Source of the DNA: Thermosipho africanus Ob7
GTDB taxonomy: Bacteria > Thermotogota > Thermotogae > Thermotogales > Fervidobacteriaceae
Length of the DNA stretch: 64,000 bases
Assembly (NCBI RefSeq): GCF_003351105.1
Contig: NZ_NKRG01000003.1
Location: forward strand, 62,001-126,000
Direction of reading: 5' to 3'
Shown: in pieces, positions 27,666 through 47,712 of the stretch
How the letters are laid out: every line of letters starts with the position of its first letter
Numbering within the stretch: position 1 is the stretch's first letter
The notes under the pieces: model-generated
Database searches by the model: none
The model's input: only the letters and a program-made list of their open reading frames with translations
Told to the model about the DNA's origin: nothing
Program-made: the position numbers and the translations under genes

Positions 27666-29030
27666 CTACACTCTTTTATATTTCCAATCACCTTTCTTGT
27701 AGAAATAGATCGCTATTAAAAATTCTGCTATATCTCCAAATGTAAATGATAGCCATAACCATATAATTGATAATTTTAGTATATATGAAAAAATGTACAT
27801 AAGTGGGATCTGAACAATCCATCTTGAGAAAAGACTCATGAAAAAATATGGCATATTATATCCTGAACCAGTAAAAACAATGCTTATACCAATACCATAT
27901 CCAAGAAAAACTAATCCTATTACACTATATCTTAAAAACAATACCCCTATATCTATTATCTCACTTTCTTTTGTAAACAATTGCATCATTTCTGGGGCAA
28001 ATACAACTATGAGAATTACAAAAATAAATGTCAAAGTAGCTGTAAGCCATCCGGACACTTTAGCAACTTTTTCTGCACGTTCTACCTTCTCAGCACCAAG
28101 TGTTTGACCAATTATTGCAGATCCTCCCATTAAAAGTCCCATCAGTGGCATGAATAAAAATCCAAAAATTCTCCCACCAATTGTATATGCTGAAACTGCT
28201 GTTGTACCATACCTGGAAACAAAATAAAGTATTATCGCTCCAGACATATTTCTCATAAAAACCTCAAACCCATTTGGCAAACCTATAGTTATAAGCTTTT
28301 TATCAATCTCCCAATTAAGTTTAAATAAACCTTTTATTGAAGGTTTAATATTTTCAATGCCACTAAACAAGAAATAAAAACCTATCAAAAATGCAACCGT
28401 TTGAGAAACAATAGTTGCCCATGCAGCACCAGAAACACCTAAATTCAAACCTTTTAATCCTAAAATCGGAACCTTTTCAAACATAAAAATAGGGTCCAAA
28501 ATTATATTCAATATACTCGACAAAATCATCAGATTCATCGGTGTCTTTGAATCTCCAATACTCCTTAAAGCAGTATTCACAGAATATGATGAAAACATAA
28601 TAGGCAAGAAAAATATTCTTATATATCCGTATTCAATTCCTAGACTTATAACTTCATTTTCTTCTGAAAATAATCCCAATATTGGCTTTAAAAAAACATA
28701 AAGGAAAAAACTCCCTAATAGTGCTACTAAAAATTTAAATGTTATAGTCTGTTCTATAGCCAAATTAGTCCTCTTGTAGTCTTTTTTTCCAAAACTTTGT
28801 GAAATCAGAGAAATTGAACTTACTCCAATAACTTCATTTAATGCTTCAACAACCCAAAAAACTGTCGAGAAAATCCCTACACCTGCAATTGCCTCTGATG
28901 ATATTTTTCCAATCCAAAAAAGATCAACAACATCATAAAACATCTGGAAAGAAAAGCCAATTGCAGTGGGAAGTCCCATAACTAAAATTTGTTTTAATAT
29001 ATTTCCCCTTGTTAGGTCTTTTGCTGGAAT
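27666..29030 (-). CDS. MATE-family multidrug/metabolite efflux transporter, ATT start
   Basis: Twelve-helix Na+- or H+-coupled exporter of the MATE family: MGLPTAIGFSFQMFYDVVDLF, GVGIFSTVFW and later GLPNGFEVFMRNMSG are MATE-like. The first ATG (28979) has no ribosome binding site. Upstream the frame stays open through IPAKDLTRGNILKQILV, the usual MATE N-terminus, to an ATT at 29030, 7 nt after AGGAGG. I therefore take ATT as the start (454 aa). Directly upstream lies its -10 (29056-29051), so the 5' UTR is only about 14 nt. Substrate unknown. Confidence 0.85.
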   Translation of the reverse strand: MPAKDLTRGNILKQILVMGLPTAIGFSFQMFYDVVDLFWIGKISSEAIAGVGIFSTVFWVVEALNEVIGVSSISLISQSFGKKDYKRTNLAIEQTITFKFLVALLGSFFLYVFLKPILGLFSEENEVISLGIEYGYIRIFFLPIMFSSYSVNTALRSIGDSKTPMNLMILSSILNIILDPIFMFEKVPILGLKGLNLGVSGAAWATIVSQTVAFLIGFYFLFSGIENIKPSIKGLFKLNWEIDKKLITIGLPNGFEVFMRNMSGAIILYFVSRYGTTAVSAYTIGGRIFGFLFMPLMGLLMGGSAIIGQTLGAEKVERAEKVAKVSGWLTATLTFIFVILIVVFAPEMMQLFTKESEIIDIGVLFLRYSVIGLVFLGYGIGISIVFTGSGYNMPYFFMSLFSRWIVQIPLMYIFSYILKLSIIWLWLSFTFGDIAEFLIAIYFYKKGDWKYKRV

Positions 29031-34567: not shown

Positions 34568-34645
34568 CCATCTCACCTCTCAATAATAGTTAAAAAAATA
34601 AAAAAATACTGTTAAAATAACTACGTAATAAGGGGGTAAGAAAAA

Positions 34646-36190
34646 ATTAAAACATTAATAAAAATTATCTTAACTTTAGTGTTTTCATTTATTTTTGTTT
34701 TAGTTTTAATAAATTTATACAATTATTCATTAAAAGTCGAAGGGCTAAAAATCGAAAGTTTTTCCGTTGTCGAAAACTCTAAAAAATACGGTGGAAATTT
34801 AAAAATTCCCTTTTTCTTTTTGCTTAAAAAGCCCTCGAAAATTTCTTTAGTAACAAAATTAGATAATGTACCTAAAAATTCATTTCTATATATCCCTCAG
34901 ATTGATGCTTCTTATATTGAAATATATATTAATGACGTATTAATTAAAAAAATAGGGTATAAAAGCAAAATAGGACACTTTTTTTATTCACCATTTTTAA
35001 TAACTTTGCCGGATGAATCTAGAGAATTAAAAATAAAAATGTCAGGAACATATGAGCTAGGTATAGACTTTCCAATATTTATAATCCAAGAAAATCAAAT
35101 TCCAAAATATTGGACATTAAAAATCATAACATTTTATCTAGTAATATTTTTGATGGGAACTCTATTATCACTTTCAATTATATTACTCTTATTCTCTATT
35201 AACTCAAAAAGAAACGAAAAGAAATTATTCTTACATTTTACCTTAGCTTCTTTTCTTGGATCAATATGGCTCTTTGATACATTACCACTTCCAATTTTTG
35301 ATTCATTAGAAAATTTTACTTTATTTAAAAAAATAACTTTAGTTAGTCTTTACCTATCTTTTTCATTTCTTTCAAAAGGTAGTTATATATACTTTAACTA
35401 CAATGGATTATCTGGTAAGATCTTAACTTTTCTTTATTATCTTTCATGCATTATCTTAATGTTTTCACCTTCAGTCTACCACACTCACATATTCCATAAC
35501 TACCTTTCTGTAATTTTTGTCCTTAATGCAGTATTTTTGATTTATCTTTTCTTTAAGTCAAATACAAAAAAATCACTTATTTTACTCTTTATTTTATCAT
35601 CATTTATTTTGACGGCAATACATGATGTAATTGTTCTAATCTTTGATATCGAAACAAAATTTTTAAGCCCTTTAGGCGTTCTTATACTATTTTTTGTATT
35701 TTCGTATATAATTATCTCAAGCTATAAAGAAACTGTAAAAGAAAAACATATATACTATAAAAAAAGTGTTTTTGATAATCTAACCAAAGCATATAATAGA
35801 AATATATTTGACTTTGAAAAATTTCATGAATCTGATCTTTTTATATACATCGATATCAACAAACTAAAAGAAATAAATGATACTCTCGGCCATAAATATG
35901 GTGATAAAATACTTAAAAAATTCTCGCAAATTGCTTTGAATAACATAAGAAAAGATGATCTACTAATCAGACTTGGTGGTGACGAATTCCTTATTGTCCT
36001 TAAAAACTGTTCTAAGAGAAAAGGAAAATTAACAATTAATAGAATACTAAATGAATTTAGAAATAGCGATGAAACTTCACCAACCTTTTCGTGGGGTATA
36101 ATTCGATACAAAGATTCGCTTGAAAAAACCCTTGAATCCGGAGATCTACTTATGTACAAAATGAAAAATAAATATAAATACAGGAATTAA
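34646..36190 (+). CDS. Membrane diguanylate cyclase (7TM sensor-GGDEF), ATT start
   Basis: Makes cyclic di-GMP in response to an outside signal. N-terminal signal anchor, an extracytoplasmic domain of about 110 residues, seven transmembrane helices (7TMR-DISM-like), then a GGDEF domain. RLGGDEFLIV is an intact active site; RKDD five residues upstream is the RxxD inhibitory site. The usual start would be GTG 34679, but that cuts off the positive head of the anchor. An in-frame ATT at 34646, 9 nt after AGGGGG, gives MKTLIKIILTLVFSF, so I use it. 514 aa. Confidence 0.87.
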   Translation: MKTLIKIILTLVFSFIFVLVLINLYNYSLKVEGLKIESFSVVENSKKYGGNLKIPFFFLLKKPSKISLVTKLDNVPKNSFLYIPQIDASYIEIYINDVLIKKIGYKSKIGHFFYSPFLITLPDESRELKIKMSGTYELGIDFPIFIIQENQIPKYWTLKIITFYLVIFLMGTLLSLSIILLLFSINSKRNEKKLFLHFTLASFLGSIWLFDTLPLPIFDSLENFTLFKKITLVSLYLSFSFLSKGSYIYFNYNGLSGKILTFLYYLSCIILMFSPSVYHTHIFHNYLSVIFVLNAVFLIYLFFKSNTKKSLILLFILSSFILTAIHDVIVLIFDIETKFLSPLGVLILFFVFSYIIISSYKETVKEKHIYYKKSVFDNLTKAYNRNIFDFEKFHESDLFIYIDINKLKEINDTLGHKYGDKILKKFSQIALNNIRKDDLLIRLGGDEFLIVLKNCSKRKGKLTINRILNEFRNSDETSPTFSWGIIRYKDSLEKTLESGDLLMYKMKNKYKYRN

Positions 36191-42127: not shown

Positions 42128-42315
42128 ATGTATCCTTTGGATATAAAACAAGAAGCCATTAAGCTTTACACAGACGAAAAACTTCCTAAGAAAGCTATTG
42201 CTTCTCTCTTAGGGGGCCTGAAAGTAGAGTACAATTGTGGATAAATAATTATCTAACATATGGCAGCACTGAACTTACAAAAAAAGAGATTAGAAAACTA
42301 TATTGGAATACATAA
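42128..42315 (+). pseudogene. IS3 transposase orfA fragment
   Basis: ATG 42128 reads MYPLDIKQEAIKLYTDEKL, the HTH head of orfA, then shifts frame at the G-run near 42211-42216; the second frame gives SRVQLWINNYLTYGSTELTK and ends at 42315. Confidence 0.75.
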
Positions 42316-42347
42316 AGAAAGCAAAAAGAAGTTTTCAAAGAAAGATA

Positions 42348-42860
42348 GTTCCAACCAGGCCAAGACAGGTACTGGGAATAGACATGACGAAAGTAATGAC
42401 AAAAGACGCAAGATGGTAAATTACATAGCAGTAATAGACTGGTATACAAGGGAAGTACTTGGCTCACAAATAAGTCTCAGAGGAAGAACAGAAGAATGGA
42501 AAAAGCATTAAATGAAGGGTGTAAAGACGGAGAGTATGAGGAAAGAAAGTAATACAGACAAGTGATAATGGTAGTCAGCCTACAAGCAGGAGATTTATGC
42601 AAGAATGTAAGATATTAGGAATACAGCAAATATTTACAAGTTACAACAATGAACGTGGAAATGCAAATATAGAAAGGTATTTTAGAACGTATAAAGAAGA
42701 AGTAGTATGGCCGGTTGAAGAAATGAGCTGTTCAGAGTTAGTAGTAAAAACAAAAAGATACGAGATATTTTACAATAGTAGATATCCACACAGTGCATTG
42801 AAATACAGAAGCCCACGAGAGGTATACGAAGAATACTTAAACTACACAAAAGTTTCTTGA
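42348..42860 (+). pseudogene. IS3 transposase orfB fragment
   Basis: Three frames hold the rve/DDE core: VLGIDMTKVMTKDARW (first Asp), VNYIAVIDWYTREVLG, then VIQTSDNGSQPTSRRF (second Asp) and ANIERYFRTYKEE (Glu). About 100 residues of the usual N-terminal part are missing. End at TGA 42858-42860. Confidence 0.8.
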
Positions 42861-43686: not shown

Positions 43687-44073
43687 TTACATATCTATTA
43701 ACTTTTTAGCCTCAATAATAAATCTGGATATAGTATTATTTATTTTTTCAAGTTCTTCAACACTTTTTGCTAAATATTCAAGGCCTTTAGGTGTGATATA
43801 ATATACTTTTTTAGAAGGTCCTTGATTTGTATTATCCCATTCAAACCTCAAAAGCCCTTCTTCTTCAAGCTTTGAAAGAATTCTATAAAGGTTCCCCATC
43901 TGTCCAAGTCCTGTAAGTTCTATACCAAATTCTAAAAGTTTATTTGCTATTTCATATCCATGCAAAGGACTTTGTGCTATTATTAACAAAACAAAAGGTT
44001 CAATAAACGTTTTCCTAAAGCGTCCCATTCCTCTTCTTCGCATTCCGTTAATTTTATCTCCTCCATTCATCAC
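43687..44073 (-). CDS. PadR-family transcriptional regulator
   Basis: 128 aa: winged helix with FIEPFVLLIIAQSPLHGYEI, GNLYRILSKLEEEGLL and KKVYYITPKGLEYL, then a C-terminal dimer helix. Start uncertain: ATG 44073 (used) has no clear binding site, but GGAGG inside the frame precedes an ATT at 44052 by 7 nt. Overlaps the upstream hydrolase end by 20 bp. Confidence 0.88.
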   Translation of the reverse strand: MMNGGDKINGMRRRGMGRFRKTFIEPFVLLIIAQSPLHGYEIANKLLEFGIELTGLGQMGNLYRILSKLEEEGLLRFEWDNTNQGPSKKVYYITPKGLEYLAKSVEELEKINNTISRFIIEAKKLIDM

Positions 44074-44797
44074 CAGAATTTAAAATAATGCACTTATCCT
44101 TTAATCTATTTTTCATAAATTTTATTGCATTTTCACCAGTACAATGTAGAGGTATCACTTTTAAATCATATTTTTCAAAAAGCTCAGTAATTTTTCTTAT
44201 CCTTTCACTTGATGCATTTACTAAGTGAAATCCTCCTACTACATATTCTATATTATACCTTTTTATCACCTGCTCTACAATATTTTCAATACCTCTATGC
44301 GCACAACCAGTAAACAAAAAATTTTCAATTACTATGTTTATTTCATCTTCAAAAAAATCCTTTCTTCCATCTGATAATCTAAATTTCTCATCAATAATAT
44401 CTTCTCTCATTTTAATATTTGTTATTATTCTAACTTCGTCAGTTGAAATATCACTATCTATAAAGTTTACTTTTAGTTCAATTTTGTTCCAATCATACGG
44501 TACTCCTGCAAATTTACTAGCACTATATCTTTCAACCAACGCTTTTTTGTGAATAAACACCTCAGGATTTGCTACATTTTGTAAAAAAATCAACCCACCA
44601 ATATGATCATAATGCCCATGTGAAATTATAACTTTTTCAATCTTAGAAAAATTAATTCCAAGCTTTTCTCCGTTTTTTATAAATACATCTGTTTGCCCTG
44701 TGTCAAATAATACCCTATCATTTATCAATATAGAAAGTCCATGTTCTTTTAAAAAAGCATCTCTAGAAGTATCATTGCATAAAACTGTAATTTTAAT
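44054..44797 (-). CDS. Metallo-beta-lactamase-fold hydrolase, ATT start
   Basis: MBL fold of the type often annotated as dihydropterin-phosphate synthase-like: SHGHYDHIGGL (HxHxDH), VGGFHL and LHCTGENA supply metal ligands. The only standard start, TTG 44728, begins in mid-domain. Read upstream, the frame gives IKITVLCNDTSRDAFLKEH before ILINDRVLFDTGQTD, a normal N-terminus, beginning at ATT 44797, 7 nt after AAGGGG. 247 aa. -10 TATAAT on the minus strand at 44840-44835. Confidence 0.88.
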   Translation of the reverse strand: MKITVLCNDTSRDAFLKEHGLSILINDRVLFDTGQTDVFIKNGEKLGINFSKIEKVIISHGHYDHIGGLIFLQNVANPEVFIHKKALVERYSASKFAGVPYDWNKIELKVNFIDSDISTDEVRIITNIKMREDIIDEKFRLSDGRKDFFEDEINIVIENFLFTGCAHRGIENIVEQVIKRYNIEYVVGGFHLVNASSERIRKITELFEKYDLKVIPLHCTGENAIKFMKNRLKDKCIILNSGDEWRR

Positions 44798-44834
44798 TTT
44801 TAATCCCCTTCCAAATAATATTCTACCTATTTAA

Positions 44835-44860
44835 ATTATACATCATTTTTGTTATATAAT
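44835..44860. promoter_or_regulatory. Divergent -10 elements
   Basis: TATAAT on the minus strand (44840-44835, for the MBL gene) and on the plus strand (44855-44860, for the hexosaminidase gene). Confidence 0.55.
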
Positions 44861-44893: not shown

Positions 44894-46693
44894 ATGATTT
44901 TTATCCCTGCTCCAAAGAAACTAAAAATAAACCAAGGTGAATTCAACTTTCCAAGTAAACTTTTCATATCTATTCCTACAAAGTCACTACTTACAAGTGC
45001 CAAAATGCTAAAAAAAGAACTTGAAAATATTGGTATTGAATCATTCATCAGTCTTCATAATGGTGAAAAAACAGTTATTGAAAGTAAAATAAACCGCTCA
45101 AAAATTAAAAAAAATTCTGGATATATATTAACAATTTCAAATAAAAAGATAGAAATAACGGCAAATAATGTAGCTGGTGTACATTATGCCTTTATGACAT
45201 TAATCCAAATTATCAAAAATTTTGGTCTAAAAATTCCTCAACTTGAAATTTTCGATTTTCCTAGCATAAAAAATAGAGGATATTTGTTAGATATTAGTAG
45301 AGATAAAGTACCAAAGCTCGAGACGTTATTTTACATTGTAGATTTACTAGCCCAACTAAAATTCAATCAACTCCAACTTTATATCGAACATACCTTTTCA
45401 TATCAAGAACATGAAAAGGTTTGGAAAGACTATTCACCACTAAGTGGAGAAGATATCATTCTTCTAGACAATTACTGTAAAGAAAGATTCATAGAACTTG
45501 TTCCAAACCAGGCTTCCTTTGGACATATGGAAAAATGGTTAACACACAATGAATATAGCTATCTAGCTGAGACTTTTGAATTTGATACACCTTGGGGAGA
45601 GCATTACAATACACCATTTTCTCTCTCTCCAGTTATTGAAGATTCTATAAAATTTCTGGATAACTTATATAAAGAGTTACTTCCTCATTTTTCAAGCAAA
45701 TATTTCAATATAAATGGTGATGAAACATTTGATTTGTGCCAGGGAAAATCCAAAAAATTGTGTGAAAAGATGGGAAAAGGCAAAGTCTATCTTGATTTCA
45801 TTCTTAAAATTTATAATTTACTAAAAAAATACAACAAAAAGATGATGATGTGGGCAGATATAATTAAAAATTATCCTGAACTTGTAAATGAAATTCCAAA
45901 TGATATAACTTTTTTAATATGGGGATATGAAAAAAATCATCCATTCGAAGATGAATGCAAATTGTTCAAAAGCAAAAAATTCTATGTATGTCCAGGAACA
46001 TCATCATGGAATTCATTAATTGGAAGGTTAGAAAATTTTATTTTAAACGTTAAAAATGCAGCTGAAAACGCCGTAAAATTCAAAGCTTCTGGTTTACTTT
46101 TAACTGATTGGGGAGACAACGGCCATTGGCAACACCTTCCGATCTCACTACCGGCAATATTTTATTCAGCAGGAGTTTTTTGGGGATTTGAAGAAAACAA
46201 AGATGTTAACTTAGAAAATGCTATTAGTCTTTATTTTGAAAAAGAGGTGGCTGAAATTTTAATTGCATTAGGCAATGCATATAAATTAACAGGTATTGAA
46301 TTTTCTAATTCTGCACTTTTTGCACTTGTATATATATACCCAGATAAAATAAATAAAGATTTTCTTGAAAAAATAAACGTTGAAAACTTATTATTAACAA
46401 AGCAATTCTTGGAAGAACAATTGCAAAAGGCTAATAATATTGATGACTCATTAATAAAAGAAGAAATTAAAAATAATATAGAACTTTCAATTTTGGCAAC
46501 TGAGCTTCTTATTTCCACAAAAAAGGCTAATGTTAACAGTATTTCCAAGCTGCCCAGTGTTACAAAAGAAGAATTTTCAATTAGATTAGAAAAACTTATT
46601 GAAAATTATAAAAAAATATGGCTTTCCAGGAATAGACCCGGAGGACTTAAGTTCAGTATTGAAAAATTAAGCAAAATAAAAAAATTGTTATAG
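44894..46693 (+). CDS. Family 20 glycoside hydrolase (beta-N-acetylhexosaminidase)
   Basis: Residues 1-115 are the GH20b-type small domain; the TIM barrel starts at KNRGYLLDISRDKVP and has the catalytic D-E pair in NINGDETFD near 276. 599 aa from ATG 44894 (AGGTGATC upstream); the frame to 44849 is not needed. No signal peptide, so it acts in the cytoplasm on imported GlcNAc-type sugars. Its stop overlaps the convergent ldh by 6 bp. Confidence 0.9.
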   Translation: MIFIPAPKKLKINQGEFNFPSKLFISIPTKSLLTSAKMLKKELENIGIESFISLHNGEKTVIESKINRSKIKKNSGYILTISNKKIEITANNVAGVHYAFMTLIQIIKNFGLKIPQLEIFDFPSIKNRGYLLDISRDKVPKLETLFYIVDLLAQLKFNQLQLYIEHTFSYQEHEKVWKDYSPLSGEDIILLDNYCKERFIELVPNQASFGHMEKWLTHNEYSYLAETFEFDTPWGEHYNTPFSLSPVIEDSIKFLDNLYKELLPHFSSKYFNINGDETFDLCQGKSKKLCEKMGKGKVYLDFILKIYNLLKKYNKKMMMWADIIKNYPELVNEIPNDITFLIWGYEKNHPFEDECKLFKSKKFYVCPGTSSWNSLIGRLENFILNVKNAAENAVKFKASGLLLTDWGDNGHWQHLPISLPAIFYSAGVFWGFEENKDVNLENAISLYFEKEVAEILIALGNAYKLTGIEFSNSALFALVYIYPDKINKDFLEKINVENLLLTKQFLEEQLQKANNIDDSLIKEEIKNNIELSILATELLISTKKANVNSISKLPSVTKEEFSIRLEKLIENYKKIWLSRNRPGGLKFSIEKLSKIKKLL

Positions 46694-47599
46694 TTCTATT
46701 TCTTCTATTTGCTTTCTTATTATATTTTTTGAATTTTCAAACAAACTAATTTCGAATTCATCCATTTCAATTGGAATAATTCTTTCTATTCCATTTTTAC
46801 CTACAATTGCGGGAAAACCTATGAAAATACCATCAATATATGTTGATGGAGTTAAGACTTTTTTCTCATCTTTAAAAATACTCTCAACAAGTTGAGCTGT
46901 AACTACTCCTATAGCAAAGTTTGTAGCTCCTTTTTTCTCAATAATTGTATAAGCTGCATTTTTAGTTTCCTCAAATATGTCTCTCAAATTTCTACAATTT
47001 TTTCTATTACATACCTTGCAAAAATCTTTTATATTTACACCACCAATAGTTGCACTACTCCAAACCATTAGTTCACTATCGCCATGTTCACCCACAATAT
47101 ATGCATGAACACTTGCCGGTGAAACTCCACACTGCTTTGAAACCAAAGCTCTAAATCTTGCTGTATCAAGTATTGTCCCTGTACCAATCACTTTATTTTT
47201 TGGAAAGTCTAGTTCTTTCCAAAGAAAATAAGTAAGCACATCAACTGGATTAGTTACGTTTATTATAATACTTTCATTAGCGCATTTTTTTATTTCTTTA
47301 GATATTTCTTTTATTATCTCATAGTTTCTTTTTGTTAAATCTAACCTTGTTTCACCAACTTTTTGAGCTGCACCAGCGGTAATAATAACAATATCACTGT
47401 TTTTTAAATCTTGGAAATTTCCAGCATAAATATTACATCGCTTGAGTAAAGAAGTACCATGATAAAGATCTAATGCTTCACCATAAGCCTTTTCATAATT
47501 TTTATCAATAATTACTATCTCATTAGCTATCTTTCTATGAAGCAAAGAATATGCTATGCTTGTACCTACTCTTCCTGCACCAATTATTGAAATTTTCAT
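46688..47599 (-). CDS. ldh: L-lactate dehydrogenase
   Basis: Pyruvate to L-lactate, NADH dependent. IIGAGRVGTSIA (NAD), AGAAQKVGETRLDL (Gln at the specificity loop, hence LDH not MDH), VGEHGDSE (catalytic His). A loop CKVCNRKNC matches the cysteine-bearing insert that I recall from Thermotoga LDH. Start ATG 47599 after AAAGGAGTG; 303 aa. Confidence 0.94.
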   Translation of the reverse strand: MKISIIGAGRVGTSIAYSLLHRKIANEIVIIDKNYEKAYGEALDLYHGTSLLKRCNIYAGNFQDLKNSDIVIITAGAAQKVGETRLDLTKRNYEIIKEISKEIKKCANESIIINVTNPVDVLTYFLWKELDFPKNKVIGTGTILDTARFRALVSKQCGVSPASVHAYIVGEHGDSELMVWSSATIGGVNIKDFCKVCNRKNCRNLRDIFEETKNAAYTIIEKKGATNFAIGVVTAQLVESIFKDEKKVLTPSTYIDGIFIGFPAIVGKNGIERIIPIEMDEFEISLFENSKNIIRKQIEEIEL

Positions 47600-47712
47600 A
47601 TTATCACTCCTTTCCAAAAAAATTTTACCACATTTTTATAAGGTAAGACTAATTAATTTATTCTGAAATAATTTTTTTACAAATAATTAATTTATATTCC
47701 ACATGAATCTGT

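Follow-up and report, generated by a model that had tools for sequence, protein, structure and literature searches.

A probable AUU start codon for a Tm1679-type MBL-fold hydrolase gene in Thermosipho africanus Ob7, and a proposed minority class of AUU, AUA and AUC starts

AUU serves as the start codon of infC and pcnB in Escherichia coli (PMC5472188, PMC1780047), and in Staphylococcus aureus cvfC1 (AUU) and ccpN and citZ (AUA) carry such codons behind extended Shine-Dalgarno (SD) sequences, with output at ~10% of AUG (PMC13009471). An AUU start has also been proposed for lepA in two species, initiation factor IF3 acts as a repressor at the GTC start of sigR (PMC5472188), and Thermotoga maritima is reported to have strong ribosome binding sites (PMC3636130). 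A literature search that took in few subscription journals returned, in the text available, no report of an AUU start for this bacterial group. Here, we describe a metal-dependent hydrolase gene of T. africanus Ob7 that appears to start with AUU. It lies in a 64,000-nucleotide stretch (contig NZ_NKRG01000003.1, positions 62,001 to 126,000), referred to below as the window, and all coordinates given without a contig are positions in it.

The hydrolase gene resembles E. coli infC and pcnB in its proposed start codon; such cases are very few in E. coli, and IF3 autoregulates infC there, but no link to IF3 is known for the hydrolase. The S. aureus genes are similar to those described here in having an AUU or AUA start that follows an SD and is conserved between species. 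They differ in number and evidence, with four cases including infC, mapped by experiment, against more cases here, inferred from sequence alone; their SDs are extended, whereas that of the hydrolase is not. As with lepA, the full-length protein is recovered only with the AUU start, the lepA proposal concerning one gene in two unrelated species. Each gene fits a known kind of AUU start, and the density of such starts is the notable part.

The hydrolase gene and its start

The hydrolase gene (44054..44797, minus strand) has 247 codons counted from ATT and lies in a minus-strand frame (44830-44054) that is open for 258 codons from stop to stop. As the sequence-only reading had stated, the first ATG, GTG or TTG in this frame is TTG 44728 (44726..44728, minus), codon 24 from the ATT, and the proposed ATT start (44795..44797, minus) stands exactly 7 nt past a Shine-Dalgarno-like AAGGGG (44805..44810, minus); reading of the frame confirmed both. 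AAGGGG is weak in the SD energy model; the corresponding site in the sister genome (G001) is GGGAGGGG, with an energy of -12.2. Further upstream, TATAAT (44835..44840, minus), with the same letters in the sister, may be a -10 element; a consensus promoter scan called no promoter on the strand of the gene. Folding of the leader RNA was unremarkable (z -0.44).

The protein matches Pfam Lactamase_B (8.9e-11) and is similar over its full length to Tm1679-type MBL-fold hydrolases. Its nearest solved relative is Tm1679 (PDB 3h3e, E 2.8e-48), with 2p4z also related, and its HxHxDH metal motif, SHGHYDH, is invariant in 15/15 aligned proteins. Tm1679, a metal-dependent hydrolase, is like this protein in both family and N-terminus: the residue encoded by ATT aligns with Met 13 of 3h3e chain A, residues 1-12 of which we take to be an expression tag. 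By comparison, L189, L191 and L192, from members of the order further removed, start with GTG or ATG.

A first scan for relatives with the single hydrolase protein as query found none. In a first homologue set, 30 loci were read at the start and 15 were carried on to alignment, the excluded 15 being partial or weak matches or having a different N-terminus (among them L024, with ATG in the column). The aligned proteins have ATG, GTG or TTG in the exact column of ATT 44797 in 13 cases and ATT in 2, namely this genome and its sister; ATT is kept in that one other genome only, and the remaining genomes are canonical there. A wider search of 103 genomes of the phylum matched 40 and gave 29 loci (L171-L199, best first), many of them from genomes already in the first set, with ATG, GTG or TTG in the column in 25/29, ATT in 2/29 (again this genome and its sister) and neither in 2/29 (L187 and L197, both with longer N-termini). 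No canonical codon stands at the homology-defined start of the hydrolase gene itself. The earlier proposal of a real ATT start draws support from the 25/29 canonical codons in its column, from the ATT of the sister and from invariant residues upstream of the TTG; its suggested comparison of the upstream residues shows close homologues beginning at the ATT column and not at TTG 44728. An alignment scan returned 80 distant named loci, of which 27 had gaps or a match that began late and were set aside. The column codon of the remaining 53 is canonical in 18 (13 ATG, 3 TTG, 2 GTG), ATT in 3, ATA in 4, ATC in 2 and another codon in 26; in many of the 35 non-canonical rows an ATG lies a single codon or a few codons further upstream. 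Because these loci are too distant, they were not used to place the start.

The sister genome is 96% identical to this one, and AGGGGATTAAAAATTAAAATTACAG around the start is identical in the two. Substitutions and a 2-nt indel separate the two leaders ahead of it; AGGGGATTAAAAATT is unaltered in G001, where an indel and a stop break the leader before it. In G001 an in-frame TAA lies nine codons ahead of the ATT, and with this stop and the leader differences there is therefore no canonical upstream start in that genome.

Sequence comparison establishes the position of the start and its conservation in the sister and, as set out below, an enrichment at the level of the class. Our main reading, with a probability of roughly 0.88, is that AUU 44797 starts a full-length Tm1679-type MBL-fold hydrolase, and that the gene is one of a minority class (~2%) with AUU, AUA or AUC starts. 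The start could instead be another non-canonical codon a few codons off, such as TTA 44803, ATT 44791 or ATA 44821, since SD spacing by itself is unable to separate neighbouring codons and a predictor blind to start-codon identity weakly chose TTA 44818. We consider this improbable: among nearby codons only ATT 44797, at 7 nt, falls in the column where 25 relatives have their start, and ATA 44821 precedes the SD and is not conserved in the sister. Slightly less probable still is translation from TTG 44728, the first canonical codon in the frame, which would give a protein 23 residues shorter and make the upstream homology a relic. Such a start would lose five residues (D9, E18, H19, G20 and S22) that are invariant across the 15 aligned proteins and all lie upstream of the TTG; moreover, homologues begin upstream of the TTG column, and the coding upstream of it is retained in the sister genome. 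That an assembly or sequencing error hides a true ATG, one base away from ATT, is very hard to credit, because the same ATT is read in the sister, whose nearby sequence differs from that of this genome, and the ATTs of the MATE and GGDEF genes described next are likewise common to both genomes.

Other genes with non-canonical starts

The sequence-only reading had also proposed ATT starts for two further genes in the window, and homologue columns bear this out strongly for the first and well for the second. A MATE transporter gene (27666..29030, minus; Pfam MatE 1.3e-58) has ATT at 29030-29028 after AGGAGGTGA (29043-29035). A homologue search matched 22/25 genomes; this genome and the sister both start with ATT, and ATG stands in the same column in L282, L283, L284 and L285. 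A gene for a membrane GGDEF protein (34646..36190, plus; Pfam GGDEF 4.2e-25) has ATT at 34646-34648 after AAGGGGG (34630-34636), again in this genome and the sister. ATT lies one to three codons off the column in its relatives L298 and L300, and L310, in a gene that carries stop codons, has ATC in the start column. Because ATT, ATC and ATA each encode isoleucine, replacement of one by another may reflect a conserved residue; the diagnostic exchanges in these alignments are those with ATG, GTG or TTG, at the hydrolase and MATE genes.

A gene for a PadR-like regulator (43687..44052, minus; Pfam PadR) possibly provides a fourth ATT start in the window, at 44052-44050, although the case is ambiguous. 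GGAGGAG (44064-44058) lies shortly before this ATT, within the last codons of the upstream hydrolase gene; an ATG at 44043 is AGG in the sister, and an upstream in-frame ATG has a poor SD. At 42260-42860, short ORFs resemble transposase pieces in translation and are probably a broken insertion sequence.

For a dehydrogenase gene (46688-47617, minus), whose protein begins MKISIIGAGRVG, the codon is ATG here and ATA in the sister; on this comparison the start codon has changed between close relatives. A small membrane protein gene (L067, contig 4 of this genome, ~92589), whose product reads as fliO-like, has ATT in three genomes; a fourth genome has ATA. Every one of these codons is preceded by an SD, and no canonical start lies nearby.

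Frequency of AUU, AUA and AUC starts

Start frequency was surveyed in six genomes (400 kb each, plus the window; 464 kb of 1.93 Mb and 450 ORFs for this genome, G000). Codon usage and SD pairing served to predict the starts, blind to start-codon identity, with a consensus anti-SD that may differ from the host's 16S end; a search of the assembly for the anti-SD tail GGATCACCTCCTT gave no match. A case had to combine a margin >= 3 with an SD energy <= -11 and to lack ATG, GTG and TTG at SD distance; ORFs whose first 120 codons include no canonical one were excluded from the counts, and the expectation was computed from each gene's own downstream codons.

ATT, ATA or ATC stood at SD distance in 14/19 cases in G000 (3.76 expected, p 6e-7) and in 8/14 in G001 (3.14 expected, p 0.005), the two genomes being close kin. 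Enrichment was not significant singly in G003 (6/16, 3.66 expected), G007 (5/16, 2.97), G033 (3/11, 1.14) or G024 (3/10, 2.00). Other thresholds in G000 gave 16/27 (5.3 expected), 15/24 (4.7), 15/20 (4.0) and 13/16 (3.2), and an SD energy <= -13 gave 13/13 (2.4 expected); these are cuts of one sample and not independent. The excess in G000 is ~10-11 of 450 ORFs, near 2%. In 4/15 of its hits at <= -11 and margin >= 1.5, a canonical codon lies 2-4 codons further upstream, within the SD or next to it. The hydrolase gene, with an SD energy of only -7.58 at a weakly supported predicted start (TTA 44818), falls short of the cut-off and so is not one of the hits.

A homologue-anchored test gave a lower rate than the survey, with 1 ATT, 3 ATA and 0 ATC among 134 positions in G000, where the sole ATA with a strong SD adjoins an ATG, and 2 ATT and 4 ATA among 234 positions in G001, several beside an ATG; since a canonical partner is required, this test is blind to starts that are AUU, AUA or AUC in the relatives too. 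A genome-wide count of AGGAGGN{5,9}ATTAAA, run as a check, was uninformative (1 match, which is an ATG site; the reversed pattern, as control, gave 7).

The suggestion that ATT starts are common in this organism thus holds in part: the non-canonical class is enriched, but at a low percentage (~2%) and as a mix of ATT, ATA and ATC. AUU, AUA and AUC probably serve as starts for ~2% of genes here, as a minority and not as AUU alone.

Initiation and IF3

At 44797, fMet-tRNA would pair with two of the three AUU bases, the codon being positioned by an SD at good spacing. Such initiation would be inefficient and repressed by IF3, so genes with AUU, AUA or AUC starts would run at low, IF3-sensitive levels; by analogy with S. 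aureus, strong SD pairing in this group may make these codons tolerable at a reduced rate. A wider reading, to which we give slightly less than even odds, is that AUU, AUA and AUC form a regular fourth start class throughout the genus, serving ~2-3% of genes (tens), enabled by unusually strong SD pairing, with output set by IF3 and with the cross-species GGDEF and fliO-like starts included. Across the group, gene callers limited to ATG, GTG and TTG would cut such genes short or place them wrongly. If the class is real, it would provide a natural gene set for asking how far a strong SD replaces codon matching, and whether IF3 levels coordinate these genes.

Loss of IF3 in this group was considered and rejected, as the IF3 gene, with its N-domain, is present in 21/21 genomes searched. 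The E. coli initiator tRNA anticodon-arm sequence GGGCTCATAACCC has a single match, so nothing points to an altered initiator. Non-canonical infC starts have precedent in other bacteria (PMC5472188), and IF3-based start discrimination is therefore probably intact. Among 20 infC loci read, ATC follows a good SD and occupies the start column in 8, all in the family of the host; one has ATA at the column, and in the others ATT, ATA or ATC is visible near an SD, whether or not in the column; at the sequence level, near relatives of this organism have an AUC-type infC start.
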